From an uncultured Verrucomicrobiae bacterium (GTDB lineage Bacteria; Verrucomicrobiota; Verrucomicrobiia; Limisphaerales; UBA1096): DNA of 64,000 bases. The notes under the pieces were generated by a model. That model was given only the letters and a program-made list of their open reading frames with translations, had not been told where the DNA came from and ran no database searches. Shown here one piece after another: positions 300 to 13,778 of this stretch. The DNA is taken from contig CALJHX010000008.1 in assembly GCA_937770485.1 (NCBI GenBank), positions 1 to 64,000 on the forward strand. Reading direction: 5' to 3'. The position numbers and the translations under genes are program-made. Position 1 is the stretch's first letter. Each line of letters starts with the position of its first letter.

Positions 300-402
300 G
301 ATTTGGTTGCGAAGGCTGAAAAGTCACGCAGCTAGTTGATTCTTGTCGGGTTCCAAAACAGGTTTAGCCGCAGATGGAGCCAGATAAAAAGGGAGTCCGT
401 AA

Positions 403-560
403 TTCTTGCTCAGATTGGCAGAGTTATTTTTCGTTTTGCTTCGCGACTCTACAGTTTGGATTTTTTTGTTTACGAATCAGGATGCTTTCGTTGTTGAGTC
501 GTTTAGGTGGAAGAATGTGGAGTTTGAAAAGACTTAGTGGCGGTTTAGTGTCCCTTAAGA
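403..560 (+). repeat. Direct repeat copy A, 3' side of metX
   Basis: An imperfect copy of this stretch recurs at 3168-3330 in the same orientation. The best part is the block around 423-505: TTCGTTTT, CTTCGC, ACTCT and TACGAATCAGGA are shared, followed by GAGTCGTTTA. The two copies bracket the metX-metY operon. A 70-codon open frame falls inside (374-586) but has no recognisable product and is probably incidental. Bases 300-402 hold no gene that I can see. Confidence 0.6.
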
Positions 561-587
561 ATTCCGCTCTACCCCTTCTTAATTAAC

Positions 588-1745
588 CTACTTATCCAGA
601 AAAGCTGCTAGAGTCGGTTGGTATAGTTCAGGCTCAAGCAGGAAAGAATCATGTCCTTTATCAGATTCAACTTCGTGCAACTCTGAGATTATGTGGTTTT
701 TTATGAAAAAATTGTGAAGTTCTTTTTGTTCATCCGGATAAAAACAAACGTCTGTATCTATTGAAATGACCAAGGCTCTAAAGTCAGGACTGAGTTTCGC
801 GGAACTTTCAGTCTTGTTCTCAATAGAGAACTTTTGCCAGGCACTAACAATCTTTAAATAAGAATTAGCATCAAATCTTTGCGAAAATTTACTCGCTTGG
901 TATTTGAAATAGGATTCTATTTGATGTGTTGGGCAGTAACTTGAATTATCATCATTCTGGATCAATACATTCTTCTTAGCACGCTCGGCCATCATCGAAA
1001 GAGAAACATAGGTCTTGTGACCAATCATTCGGGCCAACTCCAATCCTAATTGGGGAGAATTCTTTTCAGAATAGTTTCCCTCTTGAAATAAAGAATCACT
1101 TTCGATCGCCTTGATTTGCTCATAATTGTGTATGATTTGAAGAGGTTGTAATTTTATTCCCGATGCGATAGATGCCAGCTTGTTAACTTTTTCAGGATAA
1201 AGAAATACGGTCGTTAGAGCAAGTAATCCGCCAAGAGAAGCACCTACAACTGCATAAAGTTTTTTGATTCCAAGTGACTCAATCAGTTCCATTTGTGACC
1301 GTACTATGTCTTGAAATGATATACACGGGAATGCCCCCATATATTTTTTTCCTGAATCAGGATTTATTGTGTCAGGACCTGTTGATCCATAGCAACCGCC
1401 AAGATAGTTCGCACATATTACAAAATATTTAGAGGTATCTATTACTCTTTTGGGACCGATAAATTTATCCCACCAACCTGTTCTGCATTCATCTGCCCAA
1501 AACCGATCAACCGATTCGTTTACCGACTCACGGTATCCGGCCGCGTGTTGGCTGCCACTTAAAGCGTGAAATAGGAGGATGACATTGTCTTTATTGCTAT
1601 TGAGTGTGCCGTAAGTCTCGAAAGCCAATTCGCCATGATTAAGCTGTTCGCCATTTTCGAGTAGGAAAGGCTTGTCCGAGGCGGCAAACTGATAAGTACC
1701 TTTAAATGAAATCAAGTCGTCACCATCGGGAAGTTGAGACATCAC
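588..1745 (-). CDS. metX: Homoserine O-acetyltransferase (MetX)
   Basis: The 385-residue product is an alpha/beta-hydrolase-fold acyltransferase that acetylates L-homoserine with acetyl-CoA, the activation step of direct-sulfhydrylation methionine synthesis in the cytoplasm. Family hallmarks are visible: HALSGSQHAAG near residue 60, GPDTINPDSGKKY near 123, the nucleophile elbow GASLGG with Ser170 (GGSMGG is more usual), the acid region SIDTD near 328-332, and the catalytic His in KGHDS at 365. Length is normal. The gene lies 35 bases downstream of metY on the same strand, so the two enzymes acting in sequence are co-transcribed. It is more AT-rich than the genes to the right. A succinyltransferase activity cannot be excluded from sequence alone, but pairing with MetY favours acetyl. 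Confidence 0.93.
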   Translation of the reverse strand: MMSQLPDGDDLISFKGTYQFAASDKPFLLENGEQLNHGELAFETYGTLNSNKDNVILLFHALSGSQHAAGYRESVNESVDRFWADECRTGWWDKFIGPKRVIDTSKYFVICANYLGGCYGSTGPDTINPDSGKKYMGAFPCISFQDIVRSQMELIESLGIKKLYAVVGASLGGLLALTTVFLYPEKVNKLASIASGIKLQPLQIIHNYEQIKAIESDSLFQEGNYSEKNSPQLGLELARMIGHKTYVSLSMMAERAKKNVLIQNDDNSSYCPTHQIESYFKYQASKFSQRFDANSYLKIVSAWQKFSIENKTESSAKLSPDFRALVISIDTDVCFYPDEQKELHNFFIKNHIISELHEVESDKGHDSFLLEPELYQPTLAAFLDK

Positions 1746-1780
1746 TTCAATGACAAGGAATATAGTCGTTTGATTTTAAC

Positions 1781-3058
1781 CTATGCCAGAGCTTGGTCCA
1801 AATCAGCGATAATATCTTCAATATTCTCTATCCCAACACTCAACCTGACCAGTTCTGGCGTAATTCCTCCTTCGCGCTGCTGCTCCTCATTAAGTTGAGA
1901 GTGGGTAGTAGAAGCAGGGTGGATTGCCAAACTCTTGGCGTCGCCAACATTGGCAACATGAGAGAAGAGCTTTAGGCTGTTTATGAATTGTTCTCCCGCA
2001 TCTCTACCTCCATTGATGCCAAATACCACCATAGAACCACCTTTTCCCTTAAGATACTTTTGATTTAACTCATTCATTGGGTCTCCTTCCAGTTTTGGAT
2101 AACGAACCCAATCCACAGCTTTGTGGTCTTTGAGATGTTCAGCAACGATTGAAGCATTTTCACAGTGCTTCTCCATGCGAAGCGGAAGAGTCTCAATACC
2201 CTGTAAGAACATCCATGAATTGTCTGGAGAAATACAGGCCCCTAAATTCCTGAGTGGGACTGTTCGCATTCTAAGAATATAGGCAAGGGGGGCAAGCATT
2301 TCTGGCAAGTCATGCCCCCATCTTAAACCATGATAAGAATTATCTGGTTCATCGTATAACGGATGTTTGCCGGCAGCCCAATTGAACCGTCCGCTATCAA
2401 TGACTATACCACCTATTCCTGATCCATGGCCTCCTAACCATTTAGTTAACGAATGAATGATGATATCACAACCATGCGCCAATGGTTGAGTCAGGTAAGG
2501 TGTCGAGAAAGTAGCATCTACAACAACGGGAATACCATGAGCTTTGGCGATTGAAGACACCTTCTCTAAATCTGTAATTTCCAAGGCTGGGTTTGAAACC
2601 GATTCGCAAAAAATCGCACGAGTCTTGTCATCAATTGCATTGGCAAAAGCCTCGGGATCATTTGAATCTACAAATTTAACATTTATTCCAAGATTAGGTA
2701 ATATGTTATTAAATTGTGTATAAGTGCCTCCGTAAAGGTTCCTTGCGCTGACTATATTATCCCCTGCTTGGGCGAGATTAATAATTGAATAAAAAACCCC
2801 GCTTGTGCCTGATGCCAAGCTTAAACCAGCCATTTCATGGGCACCCTCCAACAATGCAACTCGTTTTTCTAAAACATCGTTGGTCGGATTCATTAACCTC
2901 GAGTAAATGTTTCCCAACTCTTGGAGTGCAAATAGTTTGGCAGCATGCTCTGTGCTCTTAAACTGATATGATGATGTTCGATAAACGGGAACTGCTCTTG
3001 ATAGAGTCGTTTGCTCAACTGAGTAGCCTCCGTGTAAACAGGTTGTTTCAAATTTCAT
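1781..3058 (-). CDS. metY: O-acetylhomoserine sulfhydrylase (MetY)
   Basis: This PLP-dependent Cys/Met-metabolism family enzyme converts O-acetylhomoserine and sulfide to homocysteine. Visible motifs include the start FETTCLHGGY, the phosphate-binding region SLASGTSG, YGGTY, the VVVDATFSTP segment, and the PLP lysine in HSLTKWLGGHG (about residue 206 from this start). The frame is open six codons further upstream to 3076, but the ATG at 3058 gives the usual family start MKFET and leaves about 30 bases behind the predicted promoter at 3095-3123. It is the first gene of the metY-metX operon. No SAM riboswitch was recognised in the short leader. AT-rich composition and bracketing repeats suggest acquisition as a cassette. 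Confidence 0.93.
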   Translation of the reverse strand: MKFETTCLHGGYSVEQTTLSRAVPVYRTSSYQFKSTEHAAKLFALQELGNIYSRLMNPTNDVLEKRVALLEGAHEMAGLSLASGTSGVFYSIINLAQAGDNIVSARNLYGGTYTQFNNILPNLGINVKFVDSNDPEAFANAIDDKTRAIFCESVSNPALEITDLEKVSSIAKAHGIPVVVDATFSTPYLTQPLAHGCDIIIHSLTKWLGGHGSGIGGIVIDSGRFNWAAGKHPLYDEPDNSYHGLRWGHDLPEMLAPLAYILRMRTVPLRNLGACISPDNSWMFLQGIETLPLRMEKHCENASIVAEHLKDHKAVDWVRYPKLEGDPMNELNQKYLKGKGGSMVVFGINGGRDAGEQFINSLKLFSHVANVGDAKSLAIHPASTTHSQLNEEQQREGGITPELVRLSVGIENIEDIIADLDQALA

Positions 3059-3094
3059 TATTTTAATGATACGCAAGTAAAACGAATCCGGAAT

Positions 3095-3123
3095 ATTATC
3101 GACAAAAGATGAGACTTTTTCAA
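3095..3123 (-). promoter_or_regulatory. Predicted sigma70-type promoter of metYX
   Basis: Reading the minus strand, TTGAAA (3123-3118) and GATAAT (3100-3095) are separated by exactly 17 bases; each hexamer matches 5 of 6 consensus positions. Transcription would begin about 30 bases before the preferred metY start at 3058. Confidence 0.6.
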
Positions 3124-3167
3124 TAAATAAACAAAACTAATAAAATATAAAAATATAAAAAGCTGTT

Positions 3168-3330
3168 TTCTTGCGCAGTTTATTTTCGTTTTCTTTCGCA
3201 ACTCTTCGGTTTAGCTTTTTTCTTTGTACGAATCAGGACGTTGTCGTTAAGTCGTTTAGAAGATTCAACGCGAAGGTTGAAGAAGGCTTTTCGGCGGCTT
3301 CGAGTCTTGTGGGAGCACTACTTTCCTTAA
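3168..3330 (+). repeat. Direct repeat copy B, upstream of metY
   Basis: Same orientation and similar length as copy A at 403-560, with the shared core TTCGTTTT, CTTTCGCAACTCT and TACGAATCAGGA. It occupies most of the 370-base gap between metY and the next gene. No convincing coding frame was found in the gap; the rest is a very AT-rich tract (3123-3165) upstream of the metYX promoter. Confidence 0.6.
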
Positions 3331-3450: not shown

Positions 3451-4566
3451 ATGAAAACCATTCAACGTTCCATTGTCGGTTTATTCGCCGCTTTGCTAGC
3501 GACATTTTTCGTTTCACCATCGGACGCGGCCCCCTATGAGAAAGGGGATGTCAAACTCCAGTCCATCGGGCCGCTTGCGACCGGACCGGATGGAGTTTTG
3601 TTTATCTCAGATCCCAAGGCGGCTTCCATCATCGCTATCAAGACCGCGGCCAAGCCGACCGACAATCCCCCCGGCAATTTCAAGGTCGAAGGTTTGAAAG
3701 CCAAAGTGGCGGCTGTCCTGGGCGCGTCCGTGGATCAAGTACGGATCATTGACCTTGCAGTGGATACCAGTTCGCAGTTGGCCTATTTATCCGTCATACG
3801 CGGACAGGGTGCCAACGCCAACGCGACTGTTGTATCCGTCCGACCCAGTGGAAAGATTCATGTTTTGTCTCTCAAGAATGTTCAGCATGCTGTTGCGAAA
3901 CTGTCAAACGCCCCCGCCGATCAAGAAACAGGAACAGGTCGCCGGCGCAGAAATCAGCGGATGGAGTCCATCACGGATATTGCCTTCGTCAACGGCAAGG
4001 TGATTGTTGCGGGACTATCCAATGAGGAGTTTTCCTCGACGCTGCGGACTATTCCTTTTCCCTTTGAAGGTTCTCAGAAGGGGTCGGGAGTGAGAATTTT
4101 TCACGGGGCACATGGCCGTTATGAAACGTCCTCACCCGTCCGCACGTTCGTTAGCTACGACATCGCTGGCGATCCTTATATACTCGCCGCTTACACCTGC
4201 ACTCCACTCGTGAAAATCCCGATGATGGAGTTGAAGCCGGGTTCAAATGTCGTTGGGGAAACCATCGCGGAACTGGGCAACCGCAACCGCCCGCTCGACA
4301 TGATTGTCTATAAGAAGGATGGCAAGGAGTACCTGCTGATGGCCAACAGCAGCCGAGGAGTGATGAAAATCACCACGGAGAAACTTGGGAACTACAAGGG
4401 CATCACAGAAAAAGTGTCCGGAGGCGGAACAAAAGGAGTGCCCTATGAAACAGTTTCAGACTGGACGAAGGTTTACCAGTTGGCCGAGTTGGACGGCCAG
4501 CATGCACTGGTGGTAAGGGGTGCGGATGGTGACAACCTGAACCTTGAGGCTGTTCGACTCCCGTAA
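3451..4566 (+). CDS. Exported protein of unknown function, beta-propeller-like
   Basis: A 371-residue protein with a clear signal peptide (hydrophobic core to about residue 22, cleavage probably after SDAA). The mature part alternates short beta-rich segments such as TGPDGVLFISDPKAASIIAI, IIDLAVDTSSQLAYLSV and ITDIAFVNGKVIVAGLSN, a pattern of propeller-type folds, but no named family is recognised. A basic stretch GRRRRNQR sits mid-protein. Its stop codon overlaps the start of the next gene by one base (TAATG), so the two exported proteins are very likely made together. Function unknown; the propeller fold is inference. Confidence 0.75.
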   Translation: MKTIQRSIVGLFAALLATFFVSPSDAAPYEKGDVKLQSIGPLATGPDGVLFISDPKAASIIAIKTAAKPTDNPPGNFKVEGLKAKVAAVLGASVDQVRIIDLAVDTSSQLAYLSVIRGQGANANATVVSVRPSGKIHVLSLKNVQHAVAKLSNAPADQETGTGRRRRNQRMESITDIAFVNGKVIVAGLSNEEFSSTLRTIPFPFEGSQKGSGVRIFHGAHGRYETSSPVRTFVSYDIAGDPYILAAYTCTPLVKIPMMELKPGSNVVGETIAELGNRNRPLDMIVYKKDGKEYLLMANSSRGVMKITTEKLGNYKGITEKVSGGGTKGVPYETVSDWTKVYQLAELDGQHALVVRGADGDNLNLEAVRLP

Positions 4567-5780
4567 TGTCGGCGAGGGACTACTGTGCGATAGCGTTTTG
4601 TCCATTCATTCTTGTCTTGCAGCTTGGCTGTTCCAAGGCAACTCAAGATAACGCTGAGGAATCCACGAAGACCACCGGGTTAATTCGCCTGGTCAAGCGA
4701 CCTGCCTCACCAATCCAAGTGGTGTTTGAGGCCGATCTGCCCCAAGCAGTGGCTGATAGCCTTGCAAATTCAGAAGCATTGGAGACGAAAGACTGGGAAA
4801 AGGTATTTCACATCCACGTCGATACTGCACAGGGCTTGAGCTGGAGGGAGCTTCCACCCGTTCAAGGCTCCTATCAGATTACAAATAACCGCCTGATATT
4901 TGAGCCGCTCTTTCCCCCGCAGGCTGGTATTAATTACCATGCCGTTTTCGATCCTTCGAAGGCCGTCCGTCCGCAGGCTGGAATGTCTTTTGATGTCATC
5001 GAGACAATTCTTCGAATCGAAAAGCCAAAGGCCAAGCCGGAAACAATCGTGAGCCAAGTTTATCCGACCGCAAATTCGCTGCCCGAGAACCTTCTTAAAT
5101 TCTATCTGCATTTTTCCGCGCCGATGAGGCAGGGTAAAGTTTACAGCCACATCCACCTACTCAATGCGCGGAACGAAAAAATTGATCTTCCGTTCCTGGA
5201 GTTGGACGAGGAACTGTGGAACCCGGACAGCACACGACTCACCATCCTGTTTGACCCCGGACGCATCAAGAGCGGCCTGCTGCCTCGGGAACAAGATGGG
5301 CCGGTGTTGCAGGAAGGCCAATCGTACACACTGAAAATTGACGCCACCTGGCAGGATGCGGCAGGCGCGCCGCTCAAGCACGGCTTCACAGATTTTTTTG
5401 TCGTGACCGCCCCGGACGTGGAAATGCCATCCCCGGCCCGATGGAAAATGACTGCCCCAGAGGCCGGTTCAATAAATCCAATGACTCTCGATTTTCCTGA
5501 ACCATTGGATCACGCACTCCTGCAACGACTGCTTTGGATCGAGGATGCCGGGAAGCATGCGGTTGAAGGTCAGGTTCAAGTCGGGAATGTTGAGAGGCAG
5601 TGGGCGTTCGTCCCAAACCAAGCGTGGAAGGACGGTGATTACCGGGTGGTGATAGGGACAGGGCTAGAGGATCTTGCCGGAAACAGTGTCGCGCGACCGT
5701 TCGAAGTCGACCGGGTTCAGCGCCCCGACGATGAGTTCGTTCCCGACTACGTCACACTTGAATTCAAAATCGGAAACTGA
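4566..5780 (+). CDS. Lipoprotein with bacterial Ig-like domains, unknown function
   Basis: This 404-residue product begins with a short hydrophobic segment ending in LQLGC, a good lipobox, so it is probably a lipoprotein. Two or more segments resemble SbsA/Big_5-type Ig-like domains, each with a phrase such as FYLHFSAPMRQG or TLDFPEPLD followed by a strand and a GxxY motif (about residues 80-140, 165-285 and 300-395). Such domains usually act as spacers or adhesion modules on exported proteins. It is translationally coupled to the preceding exported protein through a TAATG overlap, suggesting a complex or shared cell-envelope role. No enzyme signature is visible. Confidence 0.75.
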   Translation: MSARDYCAIAFCPFILVLQLGCSKATQDNAEESTKTTGLIRLVKRPASPIQVVFEADLPQAVADSLANSEALETKDWEKVFHIHVDTAQGLSWRELPPVQGSYQITNNRLIFEPLFPPQAGINYHAVFDPSKAVRPQAGMSFDVIETILRIEKPKAKPETIVSQVYPTANSLPENLLKFYLHFSAPMRQGKVYSHIHLLNARNEKIDLPFLELDEELWNPDSTRLTILFDPGRIKSGLLPREQDGPVLQEGQSYTLKIDATWQDAAGAPLKHGFTDFFVVTAPDVEMPSPARWKMTAPEAGSINPMTLDFPEPLDHALLQRLLWIEDAGKHAVEGQVQVGNVERQWAFVPNQAWKDGDYRVVIGTGLEDLAGNSVARPFEVDRVQRPDDEFVPDYVTLEFKIGN

Positions 5781-5887: not shown

Positions 5888-8455
5888 ATGAGAAAACTGG
5901 ACAGACTGATCTCCCGTTACGAGGAGTTTCATCAGGACGAGACGAACCGGCTCGTCCACTTCATTTGCGTGCCGTTGATTGCGCTGAGCCTCGTGGGGCT
6001 GCTTTGGTGCATCAAGATTCCGACTACGCTTGGCGACGAGCTTTCGTTCACGCTGAACGCCGGGGCTGTCTTCATCAGCCTGGCCTCGGTTTATTATTTG
6101 TTCCTGTCAATTGGCAGTTTTTTAGGGATGCTGTACTTCGGCCTGGCCGCGAGTGTCCTGTGCATCAGCGTCGAGGCAAGCCCGCTGCCGCTGTTTGCCG
6201 TGTCGCTGACAGTGTTTGTGCTGGCTTGGGCAGGGCAGTTCATTGGTCACGGGATTGAGGGGAAGAAACCAGCGTTCACGGAGGACATTCAGTTTCTGCT
6301 GGTTAGTCCGGCTTGGCTGCTCGATGCGCTTTACAGAAAACCGGCAGTGACTCTGTTGACGGCGCTGCTGGTCGGCTGCGGGACATTCGGTTTGGCTGAC
6401 CGGTTATTCGTGATGAAGCCGTCGGTCGATTTTTCCGCCGCGCTTGGCCATGCGGCGAAGTACGATGTGCAGATTATCCGCGACGAGTGGGGCATCCCGC
6501 ACATTCTCGGCAAGACGGACGCCGACACCGCGCACGGCCTGGCCTACGCCCATGCCGAGGACGACTTCGAGACGATTCAGGATGTGTTCCTCGCTGTCCG
6601 AGGGAAGCTGGCCTCAGAGGCGGGGTTGGCGATGGCACCGAACGACTATTACGTGCACTTGATCCGGCTGTGGGATGGCTTGGACGAAAAGTACGCCACG
6701 CTCGATCCCAAGTTCCGTGCCATCTGCCAGGGCTATTGCGACGGCTTGAACCTCTACGCCAGCCGGCATCCGGAGAAATTGAAGCGCAACATTTGGCCGG
6801 CCAAGCCGCAGGATCTCGTGGCCGGCTCCATCCACAAGCTGCCGATGATGTTCGGGTTGCACAACGCTCTTGCACGGCTCATGGCGGATACCGAAAAGCC
6901 GTCACCCGTGGCCAGCGTACTGAACCCCGATAGGCTCCCGCTTGGCTCGAACTTCGTCGCGGTCGGGCCAAGCCGCTCGACCGACGGGGCCACGCGTGTC
7001 TGCATTAACTCACACCAGCCGTGGACCGGCCCGGTCGCTTGGTACGAGGCGCACCTCATCAGCGAGGAGGGGCAAAATATCTACGGCGGCCTGTTTCCCG
7101 GCTCGCCAGTCATCTTCCTCGGGCACAACGAAAACATCGCGTGGGGACACACGGTCAATCAGCCCGACCTCGTTGATACATTTGAACTCGAGCTCAACCC
7201 GGAAAACGAAAACCAGTACAAGATTGACGGCGAATGGCTCGAGTTGGAACGGCGTCTGGCTCCGCTTGAGGTTCGGCTTTGGCGCGATTTTCGGTGGACG
7301 GTCAATCGCGAGGTGCTTTACTCGATTTTCGGTCCGGCGATGCGCGTTAACGGGCGGGTATTTGCGGTTCGTTACGCCGGCATTGGCGAGTTCCGACAGA
7401 CTGAGCAATGGTACCGCATGGGCCGTGCGCAGAGCCTCGAGCAATTCAAGGACGCCATGCGCATCCAAGCGTTGGCGATGTTCAACACAGGCTACGGCGA
7501 CCGCGACGGGAACATTTTTTACGCGTACAACGCCCTATTGCCGGAGCGTGCTGACGGCCACGACTGGAGCGGCACCGTTCCCGGCAACACCCGCGACACC
7601 CTTTGGACGGAGTACCGTCCGTTCGACCAACTGCCGATCGTCGAAAACCCAAAATCAGGGTTCATCCAAAACTGCAACAGCGATCCGTTTCAGACATCCA
7701 TCGGCGGGGACAACCCGGACGAGTCGGCGTTCTCGGAAAACTACGGTATCGAAAAATGGATGACCAACCGCGCCCGCCGGGCGGTTGAACTGTACGGCAG
7801 CGACGAGTCGATCACCCACGACGAATTCTTCCGTTACAAATACGACAAGCTCTACTCGGAGAAATCGAATTTACGCCGGCAAGTGGCCGACTTCGTCGAG
7901 GCGCAAGCGGGCAACAGCGAGCTAAAAAAAGAGATTGACCTTCTGCGTCAATGGAACGGTGAAACGACCAAGGACAATCGCTCCGCCGCCCTTGTCCTGC
8001 TGACCTTTCGGCCAAGGTCAAACTCGAGCAAACTAAAAACCGGGCATGAGCGAACGCTTGATCAGCTTCAGAGAGCTTCGGGAAATCTTGTCAAACACTT
8101 TGGCCGGATCGACGTCGAGTGGGGCAAGGTCAACCGCCTCGTTCGCGGCGACAAAAACCTCCCGCTCGGCGGCGGCCCCGACACGCTTCGCGCCATCTAC
8201 GGGAGACCACAGGAAGATGGCACGCTTGCCGGGCAGGCCGGTGACTGCTTTTTCCAGTTCGTCGAGTGGGACAAGGACGGCCAACTTAACGCCTGGGCGA
8301 TGAACCAGTTTGGCAGCAACCCCGGCAACCCCGGTTCGGTGCATCACACCGACCAAGCGCCGCTGTTTGCGGAGGAAAAACTGAGAAAAGTGCCGTTCAC
8401 CCGGGAGGAAGTGCTGGCCAAGGCCAAGCGCACCTACCGCCCCATTGATCTTTGA
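5888..8455 (+). CDS. Mpo1-like (DUF962) membrane domain fused to penicillin/acyl-homoserine-lactone acylase
   Basis: The 855-residue protein has two parts. Residues 1-150 match the Mpo1/DUF962 family: YEEFHQDETNRLVHF (His15, His24), several membrane helices and QFIGHGIEGKKPA (His121). Yeast Mpo1 is an iron-dependent dioxygenase that alpha-oxidises 2-hydroxy fatty acids. After one more helix (about 152-175), residues 192-855 are an Ntn-hydrolase of the penicillin amidase family: DEWGIPHI, the autocleavage point LG|SNFVAV with N-terminal nucleophile Ser354, SHQPW, FLGHNENIAWGHT and QNCNSDP. Such enzymes cleave amide-linked acyl groups and normally self-process in the periplasm. The frame is continuous across the junction. 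The substrate is unknown; N-acyl lipids or signals fit both halves. No ribosome-binding site stands out before the ATG. Confidence 0.85.
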   Translation: MRKLDRLISRYEEFHQDETNRLVHFICVPLIALSLVGLLWCIKIPTTLGDELSFTLNAGAVFISLASVYYLFLSIGSFLGMLYFGLAASVLCISVEASPLPLFAVSLTVFVLAWAGQFIGHGIEGKKPAFTEDIQFLLVSPAWLLDALYRKPAVTLLTALLVGCGTFGLADRLFVMKPSVDFSAALGHAAKYDVQIIRDEWGIPHILGKTDADTAHGLAYAHAEDDFETIQDVFLAVRGKLASEAGLAMAPNDYYVHLIRLWDGLDEKYATLDPKFRAICQGYCDGLNLYASRHPEKLKRNIWPAKPQDLVAGSIHKLPMMFGLHNALARLMADTEKPSPVASVLNPDRLPLGSNFVAVGPSRSTDGATRVCINSHQPWTGPVAWYEAHLISEEGQNIYGGLFPGSPVIFLGHNENIAWGHTVNQPDLVDTFELELNPENENQYKIDGEWLELERRLAPLEVRLWRDFRWTVNREVLYSIFGPAMRVNGRVFAVRYAGIGEFRQTEQWYRMGRAQSLEQFKDAMRIQALAMFNTGYGDRDGNIFYAYNALLPERADGHDWSGTVPGNTRDTLWTEYRPFDQLPIVENPKSGFIQNCNSDPFQTSIGGDNPDESAFSENYGIEKWMTNRARRAVELYGSDESITHDEFFRYKYDKLYSEKSNLRRQVADFVEAQAGNSELKKEIDLLRQWNGETTKDNRSAALVLLTFRPRSNSSKLKTGHERTLDQLQRASGNLVKHFGRIDVEWGKVNRLVRGDKNLPLGGGPDTLRAIYGRPQEDGTLAGQAGDCFFQFVEWDKDGQLNAWAMNQFGSNPGNPGSVHHTDQAPLFAEEKLRKVPFTREEVLAKAKRTYRPIDL

Positions 8456-8490: not shown

Positions 8491-9801
8491 TTAGTCGTCG
8501 AAAAGGTTGTGGCTTGGCCAATCGGTGACGGCATCGGCGGCCTTGTGGACGAGCGGGTCAATTTTTGAGGAGGGGTTTTTGCCGTCAGCCGTCTGGTTGG
8601 TGTTGAACAGCACCGACCAGCAGAGGCCGTCGTGCCGCAGCACGAGAATCGTTGAGGTGCCGGACAATCCGCCGGTGTGCCAGCGGTTGGTTTTTCCGTT
8701 TTTCACCGGGCGCACCGACCAGCCGCAGCCGTAGTGCGTGGCATCCGGCTTGCCCTCTTCGTCGTTGCCGAAGTGGCCCTTGTCCGGACGCTCGATCATG
8801 GTCGCGATGGTTTCCTTTTTCAGGATGCCGGATTGTTCGAAGCGGTCCACCGCCGAGCCGAACCGCACGAGGTCAGGCGCCGAGGCGATCCAGCCGCCGA
8901 GCGAGTCGAAGCTCTCGATCGACCAGGCGCCGTAAGGCCAACTGACTTTCGCGCCGATGGCGTCGCCGGTGACGGCGATCCCGAGGAGGTCGCCGACGGG
9001 ATAATATTTCACCTCGTTTTCGGCGCGGTCGCGGAAGAGGGTTTTGCCGAGGCGCATCGACTCGATGCCGAGCGGCTTGAGGAACTCGTTCACCATGTAG
9101 TCGCCGTAAGCTCGGCCGGTGAGCTGCTCGATCACGCGGCCGAGCAGGCAGTAGCCGAGGTTCGAGTACACGTAGCGTTGGCCGGGGTCGAAGTCCAGTT
9201 GCCATCCCATCATGAAGCGGATGACGTCGTCCTGCGTGGCGGGCGGCGGCTTGCCGAGGACGCTGGCGATCTCGATGGCGTGGAACAGCGGATCGATCGT
9301 CTCCTTGCGATCCCAGCCTCCTTGATGCCGCAGCAGGTGGGCGATGGTCACTTGGCCAAGCCGGGGGTCGGCCGAGTCGCCCTTGGCCAAGTGCGGCTTG
9401 TGAGGCAGCAGGTCGAACACCGGCGTGTCGAGGCTGAGCTTGCCCTGCTCGACCAATTGCAGCGTGGCGGTGGCGGTGAACGACTTGGAGATGCTGGCGA
9501 TGCGGAACAGCGAGTTGGGCCGCACCGGTTGCTTTTTCTCGACATCCGAATAACCAAAGCTGCGCGCGTAAACCAGGCGACCGTCCTTGGCCACGGCCAG
9601 CGACGCGCCGGGGATTTTGTTGTCGCGGACGAACGCCTCCATCAGTTCGTCGAACGGCTTCAGCTCGGGAAACTTTTTACCGGCGGAAACGACCGTTTGG
9701 CTGTCCTTGGCCAAGTCAGCCTCTGCCGCCGGTGCGCTTGGCCAAGCGACAAACAAACAGGCTATAACCCAACTCAATACCATTCGGTCGGAAGGCTGCA
9801 T
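8491..9801 (-). CDS. Exported serine hydrolase, class C beta-lactamase/esterase fold
   Basis: The protein carries the three serine beta-lactamase-like motifs: SISK (Ser103/Lys106 from this start), YSN in YVYSNLGYCLLG, and HTG in RWHTGGLSG. Members include esterases, D-aminopeptidases and penicillin-binding-protein-like enzymes, so the substrate is not predictable. The open frame extends to 9891, but the ATG at 9801 lies just after the upstream gene's stop (9806) and gives a signal peptide (VLSWVIACLFVAWPSAPAAEA), so it is preferred; an ATG at 9783 is also possible. The signal peptide itself contains a TTGGCCAA repeat, read as AWPSA. Probably co-transcribed with the upstream Tat protein. Confidence 0.85.
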   Translation of the reverse strand: MQPSDRMVLSWVIACLFVAWPSAPAAEADLAKDSQTVVSAGKKFPELKPFDELMEAFVRDNKIPGASLAVAKDGRLVYARSFGYSDVEKKQPVRPNSLFRIASISKSFTATATLQLVEQGKLSLDTPVFDLLPHKPHLAKGDSADPRLGQVTIAHLLRHQGGWDRKETIDPLFHAIEIASVLGKPPPATQDDVIRFMMGWQLDFDPGQRYVYSNLGYCLLGRVIEQLTGRAYGDYMVNEFLKPLGIESMRLGKTLFRDRAENEVKYYPVGDLLGIAVTGDAIGAKVSWPYGAWSIESFDSLGGWIASAPDLVRFGSAVDRFEQSGILKKETIATMIERPDKGHFGNDEEGKPDATHYGCGWSVRPVKNGKTNRWHTGGLSGTSTILVLRHDGLCWSVLFNTNQTADGKNPSSKIDPLVHKAADAVTDWPSHNLFDD

Positions 9802-9805
9802 CGCT

Positions 9806-11356
9806 TCAAGCCTGGAACGCATTGCCGATTCGATCGACCAACGGATTTGTGCGTTCGCCCGTGCCGTGCAGCTTGAACAGACTGGTGGCAAGGAAACGGT
9901 TCCTCCAATTGGACGAGACCTGATAATAGTCCTCGAGCACGGCGGAACTGAACTTGTAATCGTGAGAGTCGTTGCCCTTGAGGAACACGAGACGGCGTGC
10001 CTCCGCGATCAACGCCTGCGGGCTATGCCCGTTGTCCAGGTAGGCCAAGGTCTTTTGCGCAGCGGCGAGCCGATTGCTGTCCACGCTCTGGAAGATGCTA
10101 CCAAGCGCATGATCCCCTACGGCATCGGGCGGCAGATCCAGTTGGCCATGCGTCCGTTCAAGCACCTGGCCGCGGCCGCGCATGGCCTCGCGAAACGAGC
10201 ACAGGAAAGCCGCGTTTTGCAGCAACACCAGCCGGCGCGTCGTGTCGTTGCTGCTGGTGTTGTAGATGAATCGAAGCGCATTGGTGGTGGTCAAGGCATG
10301 CAATGCGACGATGCCGTTCTGCCGCATCAACAACTCACCCGCACCGAGAAACAGCGCGTCAAAAATAGACTGCGGCGACACGCCGCGATTGAGCTGGGTC
10401 ACGACAAGTCGGCACACCTGCTCCTCGCCGCCGGCATGGAGCGCGGCGACCAATTCCCGAACCGCATCGTCACTGGGTTGGCCGTGTTGCCATGCATCGC
10501 GAATCTCCCTGGAGAGCGTTTGGTTTCTGCGCCATGCCAGATCCGGCGCCAAGTCGTTTTCTGCCGGATTTGGTTCGCCAACATGGTTGAGCAGCGCGTA
10601 GGCGAGCGAGCGCATCACCGGCTCGGCATGACGCCAGCCGATGGTTTGCAGGGTGCGCCAGGCGTTGGCCAAAAAGATGGCCTTGTGTCCAATGCTGCGA
10701 AAGTCCCTTGCCGCGTACTCGGCAAACAGCTCAAAAACCTGGTTCGCCCCGTGACCGCGCACGAGGCCGGTTACGGCGGCATCAGCCGCCTCCTCGTTCC
10801 AACGATTCATCGCCCGCCGAAAGGCGCGCTTAGCCTGGGTAGCGGAGGGAACCTGTTTTTGATTCACCGGCGGCATGGTCCAGTTGCCCTCCCGCACGTC
10901 GCGTGCCTGCGCACTTTTGAAGTTGTCCAGGGCCCAAAAAACCGGCAGCCAACGGTCGGCCGCCGGGGAGGAGAGGCTGGCCAAGTGGGCCGAGTGGACT
11001 ACCAGCACGGCGTGAAACTTGAAACCGACTGACGGCCGGGGCTCCACATTGCGCACCCCTGCCAACAGCAGGCCGGCCAGCAGTTCGCGATAGCTCATCC
11101 CGGCCTTGATTCGTTCCGCCACCACCTCCATCAGCCTGTCCCGCGGCGTGTCCTCGATCAGCCGCACCGTCGGCTCAATCTCCGGTAGCAACTGGACGGC
11201 CTCCGGGGACACCTTGGCCTCAGCCGACGGGACAGCGTGAAGCCGGGACAAAAAGGCAATGTCACTGACCCCGGCCACCGCAGTTCCAGCCGCCATATCG
11301 GTGAGGAACCGCCGCCGGGTTGGGCGTAAAGATGGGTTCACTTGCTTCATGGTCAA
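9806..11356 (-). CDS. Twin-arginine-exported protein of unknown function
   Basis: The 516-residue product has a Tat-type leader (RPTRRRFLTDMAAGTAVAGV), which suggests export in folded form. The body is largely helical, with segments such as GHGANQVFELFAEYAARDFRS, HAEPVMRSLAYALLNH and LLMRQNGIVALHALTTTNAL spaced by conserved-looking His residues, but I recognise no named family. Histidine-rich helices plus Tat export make a metal or other cofactor conceivable; that is inference. The gene ends four bases before the serine hydrolase start on the same strand, indicating an operon. A 170-base divergent spacer separates it from the pseudopilin at 11526. Confidence 0.75.
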   Translation of the reverse strand: MTMKQVNPSLRPTRRRFLTDMAAGTAVAGVSDIAFLSRLHAVPSAEAKVSPEAVQLLPEIEPTVRLIEDTPRDRLMEVVAERIKAGMSYRELLAGLLLAGVRNVEPRPSVGFKFHAVLVVHSAHLASLSSPAADRWLPVFWALDNFKSAQARDVREGNWTMPPVNQKQVPSATQAKRAFRRAMNRWNEEAADAAVTGLVRGHGANQVFELFAEYAARDFRSIGHKAIFLANAWRTLQTIGWRHAEPVMRSLAYALLNHVGEPNPAENDLAPDLAWRRNQTLSREIRDAWQHGQPSDDAVRELVAALHAGGEEQVCRLVVTQLNRGVSPQSIFDALFLGAGELLMRQNGIVALHALTTTNALRFIYNTSSNDTTRRLVLLQNAAFLCSFREAMRGRGQVLERTHGQLDLPPDAVGDHALGSIFQSVDSNRLAAAQKTLAYLDNGHSPQALIAEARRLVFLKGNDSHDYKFSSAVLEDYYQVSSNWRNRFLATSLFKLHGTGERTNPLVDRIGNAFQA

Positions 11357-11525: not shown

Positions 11526-12260
11526 ATGAAAACCAAGCCAACTACTCCAAAACCAAATCCCGCGAGAGGATTCACATTAATCGAGTTGCTCGTGGTGATT
11601 GCGATCATTGCCATTCTCGCCGCGATGCTGTTGCCGGCGCTGGCCAAGGCCAAGGACAAGGCGATCAGCATGAGTTGTATGAACAACGTCAAGCAGATGG
11701 GCCTGGCGCTGGTGTTGTACGAGCAGGACGCGCAGGAAGTGCCGCGCTGCTGGCCACCGTTTCAGCTCAGGGACAAGAAAGGCGTCATGCAGCCCCGCCT
11801 TTGGTACCGGGTCATCCAGCCGTATCTTGGCAAGGAGGCGAAGGTCATGGGCACCGGCGTGTTCATCTGCCCCGGCACCTCCAAGCGGAAACGCACCAAG
11901 GACTATAAGGACGATTACAACTACGCGATGAACTCCAAGTTTAACGCGAGCAGCAAGTGGGCGGTACCACCGAAAGGCACGTTCAAAATGTCCGTGCTTG
12001 AGGACCCATCGGGCACCATTTTCGTCGCGGACATCGACGGCTTCAACTCATGCCTCTACCCCGACGAGACCGACACCGGCAGCAACATTACCGAGCCACT
12101 GGCAACGTCCTGTACCGCCACAGTGGCGGCACGGAGAAAAGTTCCTTCTACATGGGCGCGCAGCTCACGCGCGGAATTCGGCTCAGCAAGCTCGAACTAC
12201 TTCGATGGCCACTCCGAGCCGCTCAAAAAACGCGCCCCCGAGGACCTGTTTCGCACTTAA
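11526..12260 (+). CDS. Pseudopilin-like protein (prepilin N-terminal methylation domain), two compensating frameshifts
   Basis: Residues 15-40 form a class III prepilin leader and hydrophobic helix ([18 protein letters not shown]), cleaved and methylated by a prepilin peptidase. The remaining ~200 residues follow the layout common in Verrucomicrobiota one-gene pseudopilins: cysteine pair (SMSCMNN, FICPG), then a terminal YFDGH motif. Between about 12098 and 12185 the reading frame looks wrong: in frame it reads [12 protein letters not shown], whereas the +2 frame gives [17 protein letters not shown], which fits the family; the original frame resumes for [12 protein letters not shown]. Two compensating indels, real or sequencing errors, explain this. 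Assembly partners are unknown. Confidence 0.8.
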
Positions 12261-12285
12261 GAAGAACAAACGCTGAGCCGCCAAC

Positions 12286-13008
12286 TCAAGGCTTCTGCTT
12301 GCGGAAGAGGTCGGTCCTGATTTGCCTGGCCGCGCGGTAGCCGGCGTGGCCGTCGAGGTAGAGGATGTTCGAGCCGACGCTGTGCCTCGCGGCAGCGATG
12401 CGGCGGTCGTTGCTGAGGCGTTTGCCACTTGAGTCGTAGGGCAGGTGGCTTGGCCGCCAGACGTCGTTCAGGGCTGTTTGCGGATCACGGAAACCGGTGA
12501 CGATGGGGCGCCATGTGTTGTCCTCGTTGTCCAGCAGATACGCCGAGTCGGCCGGTTGCCTGAAGTCGGTGATCTTGCTCAAGCCAAGCTGCTCGTAGCC
12601 GTTTTTGTCCCTAGTGGAGTTGAAGTCCCACGCGTTGATCACGTACGTGACTACTTGTTTTTTGTTCGGTGTGTTCTTGGGGATGGGGTAGCTCGGGCAC
12701 ATGAAAATCCTGATGTTCCGGTAGTCCCGCTTCGTGCCGCCCTCCGGCACGTAGGGCATGAACTCCAGCCACCAGCGCCGAGAGTTGCCGGCGGTGCCGC
12801 GGGGAACCATATCTTCATTCTCATCGGCGAACATCAGCATGGCCAGGCCGACCTGCTTGAGGTCGTTGAGGCAGACGGTGGACTGCCCCTTCTGCTTGGC
12901 CTTGGCCAGCGCGGGCAACAGCATCGCGGCAAGGATAGCGATAATCGCGATCACCACGAGCAACTCGATCAATGTAAAGGCACCTCTTAGTTTGGAGTTC
13001 AGATTCAT
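12286..13008 (-). CDS. Pseudopilin-like protein, tandem paralogue 2
   Basis: The protein starts MNLNSKLRGAFTLIELL and carries the prepilin cleavage/methylation domain followed by a globular part with RWWLEFMPYVPEGGT, MCPSYP, the W-rich DVWRPSHLPY and the final ILYLDGHA motif. It is closely related along its whole length to the neighbour at 13047-13778. The frame is open to an ATG at 13020, but alignment with that neighbour ([17 protein letters not shown]) supports 13008. A TTGGCCAA repeat at 13024-13031 lies where a ribosome-binding site would be for the upstream ATG. Probably exposed by a type II secretion or type IV pilus-like machine; the role is unknown. Confidence 0.88.
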   Translation of the reverse strand: MNLNSKLRGAFTLIELLVVIAIIAILAAMLLPALAKAKQKGQSTVCLNDLKQVGLAMLMFADENEDMVPRGTAGNSRRWWLEFMPYVPEGGTKRDYRNIRIFMCPSYPIPKNTPNKKQVVTYVINAWDFNSTRDKNGYEQLGLSKITDFRQPADSAYLLDNEDNTWRPIVTGFRDPQTALNDVWRPSHLPYDSSGKRLSNDRRIAAARHSVGSNILYLDGHAGYRAARQIRTDLFRKQKP

Positions 13009-13046
13009 GTCAAATTTCATTGTTTGGCCAAACGTTTTGCAGCGAG

Positions 13047-13778
13047 CTATGGTTTCTTTTCGCGGAACAACTCAATGTTGATCAGCTTGGAATCACGAAA
13101 ACTTGAGTGGCCGTCGAGGAAGAGTATGTTTGAACCCTTACCACTATGTCGCTTCGCGGCAATGCGCCGATCGCTGCTGAGGCGTTTCCCATTGGCGCCG
13201 TATGGTAAATGGGTTGGCTGCCATACATCGTTTAAATCCGTTCTCATGTCTTGAAACCCAGTAACGATTGGACGATTGATACCGGGGTTGTCAATCCCAT
13301 CCTCATTGTCCAAAAGGTAAGCGGAGTTGGAAGGCTGCGTGAAGTCGGTGATCTTGCTCAGCCCGATATGCTCGTAGCCTATATTGTCCTTTGCCGAACG
13401 AAACTTCCATGCGTTAACGACGTAGGTGATCACCTGCTTTTTATTTGGGGTACGCTTGGGTAGCGGATAACTCGGGCACATGAAGATCTTGATATTACGA
13501 AAATCCTTCTCCGTGCCGCCCTCCGGGGCGTAGGGCATGAACTCGAACCACCAGCGTTTGGCATTGCCGCGGGGGATCGTGTCGTCGTTGTCATCGGCGA
13601 ACATCAACATCGTCAATCCGACCTGCTTGAGATTGTTCATACAGGCGGTCGCATGCGCTTTTTGCTTCGCCTTGGCTAGGGCCGGCAACAGCATCGCGGC
13701 TAGAATGGCGATAATCGCGATTACCACCAGCAACTCGATCAGGGTGAAGCCGCCTCTTGGTTTCGAGTTCGATTTCAT
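13047..13778 (-). CDS. Pseudopilin-like protein, tandem paralogue 1
   Basis: A 243-residue protein with the leader [18 protein letters not shown] at residues 9-26 and the same body layout as the next gene ([42 protein letters not shown]). The pair are head-to-tail duplicates 38 bases apart on the same strand and likely one transcript; this copy is more AT-rich and differs throughout, so the duplication is not recent. Lies about 100 bases downstream of the heme/FG-GAP gene. Confidence 0.88.

Follow-up and report, generated by a model that had tools for sequence, protein, structure and literature searches.

A conserved fusion of an Mpo1-like membrane domain and a penicillin-acylase-type hydrolase in Verrucomicrobiota

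The fusion gene and its surroundings

In the window (the whole 64,000-nucleotide stretch of DNA that was analysed), two protein families are joined within one open frame of 855 codons. The frame starts with ATG and has no internal stop codon, and an in-frame stop lies a short distance upstream of the start. Pfam searches placed both domains above cut-off: Mpo1-like (PF06127) at residues 2-150, with 61.0 bits against a cut-off of 24 (E 1e-16) and covering profile positions 2-93 of 95, and Penicil_amidase (PF01804) at residues 193-842, with 371.6 bits against a cut-off of 21.3 (E 1e-110; profile positions 1-673 of 675). An earlier note on this DNA had proposed one continuous frame that joins an Mpo1-like domain to a complete acylase, which is thus confirmed. 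The three histidines and the autocleavage Gly-Ser that it named were also found, the former at His15, His24 and His121 and the latter at Gly353-Ser354. In the alignment, the Mpo1-like domain ends at residue 151, which is the end point of stand-alone Mpo1 proteins. The parts of the gene are listed in Table 1.

Table 1. Coordinates of the fusion gene and its parts within the window.
Feature	Position	Strand	Basis
Whole fusion gene	5888..8455	+	855 aa plus stop; intact homologues
Mpo1-like (DUF962) membrane domain, residues 1-151	5888..6340	+	PF06127, E 1.2e-16; alignment with stand-alone copies
His15 codon, invariant	5930..5932	+	Alignment
His24 codon, invariant	5957..5959	+	Alignment
His121 codon, invariant (likewise Glu124)	6248..6250	+	Alignment
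Joining segment, residues 152-190: extra hydrophobic helix 152-175, then short link	6341..6457	+	
Acylase alpha-chain part, residues 191-353	6458..6946	+	PF01804; alignment to cephalosporin acylase alpha chain
Acylase beta-chain part, residues 354-855, beginning at nucleophile Ser354	6947..8452	+	

Upstream of the fusion gene (3451-5780) lie genes for a 371-residue secreted-looking protein with no Pfam family and a 404-residue lipoprotein-like protein (Big_5). They stay beside the fusion in several genomes of the genus, and no flanking gene is common to the different families. A convergent gene on the reverse strand (8491-9891) encodes a PF00144 protein of the serine beta-lactamase/esterase family, which scored far under the cut-offs of true class C beta-lactamases. 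Further downstream (11526-13778), three prepilin-like genes with a common N-terminus (28 protein letters, not shown) are found on both strands, and further genomes of the genus have such genes close to the fusion as well.

Distribution and origin of the fusion

The fusion was found in 17 genomes belonging to four genera and three families of one order (Pedosphaerales-like), with 57-98% identity, and by their labels these genomes are mostly marine MAGs. Within the genus, the window included, there are 10 full-length copies and one copy at a contig edge, which are 79-98% identical and open through the joint. Outside the genus, six genomes of two other families carry the fusion at 57-64% identity. 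A scan of named species genomes with clade-specific patterns located it in the Verrucomicrobiota MAGs UBA673, ETNP1, SI036, ALOHA, ARS72, ARS81, SP274 and others, and yielded three divergent fusions (L065-L067; 57-62% identical). The Mpo1 profile was also run against 320 genomes of the order; strong matches, at E 2e-8 or better, numbered 17 and came from three families (f1, f20 and f24; four genera). All 17 lie in open frames of 747-1212 codons, and the newly found ones that were inspected proved to be the same fusion; eleven further matches, weak and with partial profile cover, were left uncounted. Among plasmid records, none covered 80% of the fusion protein, the best matches being acylases only.

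The earlier note had considered that close relatives might carry separate full-length genes, with an indel in this genome creating an artificial fusion, or that homologues might have lost the Mpo1 histidines. Both possibilities were checked: the fusion is unbroken in independent assemblies, and His15, His24 and His121 are retained throughout. A frameshift, an assembly error or a chance joining of two genes was therefore ruled out as the source of the frame, and its probability is negligible, because the reading frame is kept through the joint and the same joint recurs in 17 independently assembled genomes across the whole range of 57-98% identity. The joining is genuine and of long standing, and selection has maintained it.

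Elsewhere in the class, the two parts are encoded by separate genes, which lie apart and even on different contigs within one genome (G309, G210). Stand-alone Mpo1-like genes (family f61, G345) have about 155 codons and are 38-45% identical to the fusion over the domain; their stop falls at about the residue where the fusion carries on. The encoded proteins of about 155 residues have the same invariant residues as the fused domain, and no gene neighbourhood was shared at the loci that were inspected. Acylases that stand alone show 24-33% identity, and their N-terminus is a signal-peptide-like stretch. No N-terminal signal peptide is present in the fusion, where the hydrophobic helix 152-175 occupies its place and is probably derived from it.

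The fused copies form one clade in the trees of both domains (support 100/100), and nearest to this clade among the sampled acylases are the cephalosporin-acylase-like ones. Since the fused copies group together in both trees and all strong Mpo1 matches are of fusion length, the fusion has a single origin and has been retained for long. In the simplest history, a single joining event would have taken place, in which an Mpo1 gene lost its stop codon and the signal peptide of the acylase became a membrane helix.

Sequence conservation, predicted structure and topology

In 24 aligned rows of fused and stand-alone proteins, His15, His24 and His121 are invariant, and so, in fused and stand-alone proteins alike, are Asn20, Glu124 and a Gly-His-x-x-Glu-Gly-x-x-Pro motif. 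All 12 fused rows that were aligned keep His15, His24, His121 and Glu124 of the Mpo1 part unchanged, together with Gly353, Ser354, His376, Val423 and Asn597 of the acylase part. For most pairs, dN/dS within a genus was 0.08-0.19 in each of the Mpo1, alpha and beta parts; in the joining segment it was 0.23-0.42 for pairs with enough change, making this segment the fastest-evolving part. Both domains are under similar purifying selection. The invariant catalytic positions and the similarly low dN/dS argue that both domains are needed, and enzymatic activity is likely for each half. The genuine two-domain fusion suggested in the earlier note is borne out by these data. In the genome of origin (83% complete), neither another Mpo1 nor another PF01804 protein was found.

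An AlphaFold2 model was built from a 38-row alignment and had a mean pLDDT of 86.6 and a pTM of 0.83. It places helices of the Mpo1 part at residues 18-40, 58-73, 75-97, 102-124 and 130-150; searches of the PDB by sequence and by fold returned no match for this domain. For the acylase part of the model, the best fold match in the PDB was cephalosporin acylase (TM 0.84-0.85 by target length), followed in order by MacQ, D-succinylase and PvdQ.

Cephalosporin or glutaryl-7-ACA acylases (1keh, 3s8r, 4e57; S45) were nearest in both the PDB sequence and fold searches. The whole acylase domain of the fusion aligns with them (E 4e-62) at 25-27% identity, and the modelled beta-chain part, with its conserved His376, Val423 and Asn597, matches 4e57/1keh. 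Residue numbers of the beta chain were mapped through the alignment with 1keh, in which Ser354 equals Ser1, His376 equals His23, Val423 equals Val70 and Asn597 equals Asn244. The fusion differs from these enzymes in having a membrane module in place of the N-terminal secretion signal, Asp786 at the position of Glu455-beta and Phe410 at that of Arg57-beta, with Leu in two fused rows (L118, L119). It thus lacks the arginine by which a glutaryl-7-ACA acylase would be recognised. In cephalosporin acylases, Arg57-beta binds the glutaryl carboxylate; as it is not kept here, the acyl pocket of the fusion is probably not adapted to acyl groups with a carboxylate. The release of an acyl chain, as put forward in the earlier note, is in line with this, since a pocket without the glutarate-holding arginine would fit a fatty or otherwise uncharged acyl group.

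The acylase part also has the Ntn fold in common with the AHL acylases PvdQ and MacQ, and matches the PvdQ profile with E 5e-52. These enzymes have no membrane domain, unlike the fusion, and against the NCBIfam PvdQ equivalog the fusion scored 176.7 bits, far under the cut-off of 950. PvdQ takes a long fatty acid off a periplasmic siderophore precursor, and for many acylases of this family it is not settled what they act on in nature and which role they serve (PMC5474475).

Yeast Mpo1 (YGL010w) reportedly carries out the alpha-oxidation of a 2-hydroxy fatty acid. The fusion resembles it in the family match above cut-off (PF06127/DUF962), the three conserved histidines and the multi-helix membrane character, and differs in being bacterial and in the extra helix and acylase that follow; its oxygenase activity is predicted from these likenesses. 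A paper citing the primary work characterises yeast Mpo1 as a dioxygenase that depends on Fe(II) and acts in fatty acid metabolism (PMC9624242).

Lysine and arginine residues are concentrated before helix 1 (4-6 residues) and after helix 4 (4-5 residues), with almost none in the other loops. According to the positive-inside rule, applied to the sequence, the N-terminus and the loop with His121 would therefore be cytoplasmic. A further hydrophobic helix follows before the acylase and would carry it outside; the favoured topology thus places one active site on either side of the membrane. Helix 130-150 is ambiguous in this respect, being moderately hydrophobic in the fusions and more so in the stand-alone copies. 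If it spanned the membrane, which its hydrophobicity might allow, the acylase would be cytoplasmic and the opposite-face placement reversed, contrary to the usual placement of the family. With active sites on opposite faces, direct channelling from the acylase to the Mpo1 domain appears unlikely. Long-chain acids flip across bilayers, however, and a relay between the domains would therefore still be possible.

Candidate function and alternative readings

We hypothesize, with a confidence somewhat short of even, that the fusion is a two-domain, self-processing lipid amidase and alpha-oxidase of the inner membrane. The Mpo1 part would reside in the inner membrane with its histidine cluster toward the cytoplasm, the old acylase signal peptide would serve as a membrane anchor, and the acylase part would be exported to the periplasm. 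Autocleavage of the precursor ahead of Ser354 would yield an alpha chain that stays covalently attached to the membrane domain and a beta chain retained by non-covalent contacts. The acylase would act at the periplasmic face, where its substrate would be an N-acylated lipid, lipopeptide or signal and its product a long-chain acid. Provided that this acid carries a 2-hydroxyl, it would flip across the bilayer, and the Mpo1 domain, depending on Fe(II), would remove one carbon, which would allow the chain to enter beta-oxidation.

Deacylation followed by alpha-oxidation of the freed chain is a plausible candidate function. The deacylation step is likely, and the hand-over between the domains, which is a guess, is the weak step. 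A vectorial bifunctional enzyme is possible though less likely than not: its acylase half would deacylate an N-(2-hydroxyacyl) lipid outside the inner membrane, and the Mpo1 half of the same polypeptide would alpha-oxidise the released 2-hydroxy acid on the inner side. If true, it would constitute an undescribed salvage route for bacterial or algal hydroxy-amide lipids. The placement of the two active sites on opposite faces in the favoured topology counts against these ideas, as do two further observations. No neighbour gene is conserved between the three families and none points to lipid turnover, the inspected neighbours having no lipid-metabolism domains. In addition, a clear fatty acid 2-hydroxylase was not found in the genome of origin, which weighs against the two-step reading; the single FA_hydroxylase-family (PF04116) protein there (L140, G000:C1:39584-39985) belongs to a broad sterol-desaturase-type family.

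The domains could also be tethered for co-localisation only, both being active in the turnover of membrane lipids or signals and neither using the product of the other; for example, the acylase might degrade foreign N-acyl signals or lipopeptides outside while the Mpo1 domain handles hydroxy acids inside. This reading, which we consider possible though somewhat unlikely, is consistent with two constrained domains that probably face opposite sides, with a joining segment whose sequence varies freely, so that no precise path between the domains seems to be kept, and with the separation of the two genes elsewhere in the class. Against this reading, the two domains strictly occur within a single chain in this taxonomic order, which suggests that linkage brings some gain beyond shared location. 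It is unlikely, in our judgement, that the Mpo1 domain acts mainly as a membrane anchor or a fatty-acid-binding platform, with its oxygenase activity lost or never present. The join does swap a signal peptide for a membrane module, which would be enough to give a membrane-bound acylase, but an anchor would not need the invariant histidines, Asn20, Glu124 and Gly-His-x-x-Glu-Gly-x-x-Pro motif, which go with a dN/dS as low as that of the acylase, and a single helix would suffice.

In a genuine fusion, both parts might also differ in their chemistry from Mpo1 and from PvdQ-like acylases, for example as a beta-lactam or peptide acylase combined with a membrane oxygenase that acts on a different lipid or an isoprenoid. 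The distance of the acylase from its nearest PDB relatives, the broad substrate range of S45 enzymes and the missing structural relative of the Mpo1 domain in the PDB leave some room for it. We regard it as very unlikely, given that Arg57-beta is not kept and that the Mpo1 domain scores above the Pfam cut-off with its histidines intact.

The earlier note was aware of no described enzyme that combines these domains, which agrees with our literature search: none of the papers covered describes an Mpo1-like domain paired with a penicillin acylase. On the sampling of Verrucomicrobiota and plasmid records, two known families are combined here into a new domain architecture. No known physiological role of bacterial Mpo1-like proteins was found. 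By the 'Rosetta stone' argument, a fusion often shows that two families are functionally linked, and this one ties bacterial Mpo1-like proteins to the S45 acylases. It also predicts a class of substrates, namely amide-linked and probably 2-hydroxy acyl chains, and offers a clean example of a signal peptide that has probably been turned into a joining membrane helix.

At the start of the contig (window positions 400-3200), metX (588-1745) and metY (1781-3076) are encoded on the reverse strand. Their DNA has about 40% GC, against 55-63% in the adjoining DNA. Because relatives of metX at 63-70% identity are present in five other genomes of the genus, contamination seems a poorer explanation for the two genes than a block that is variably present and may have been acquired.
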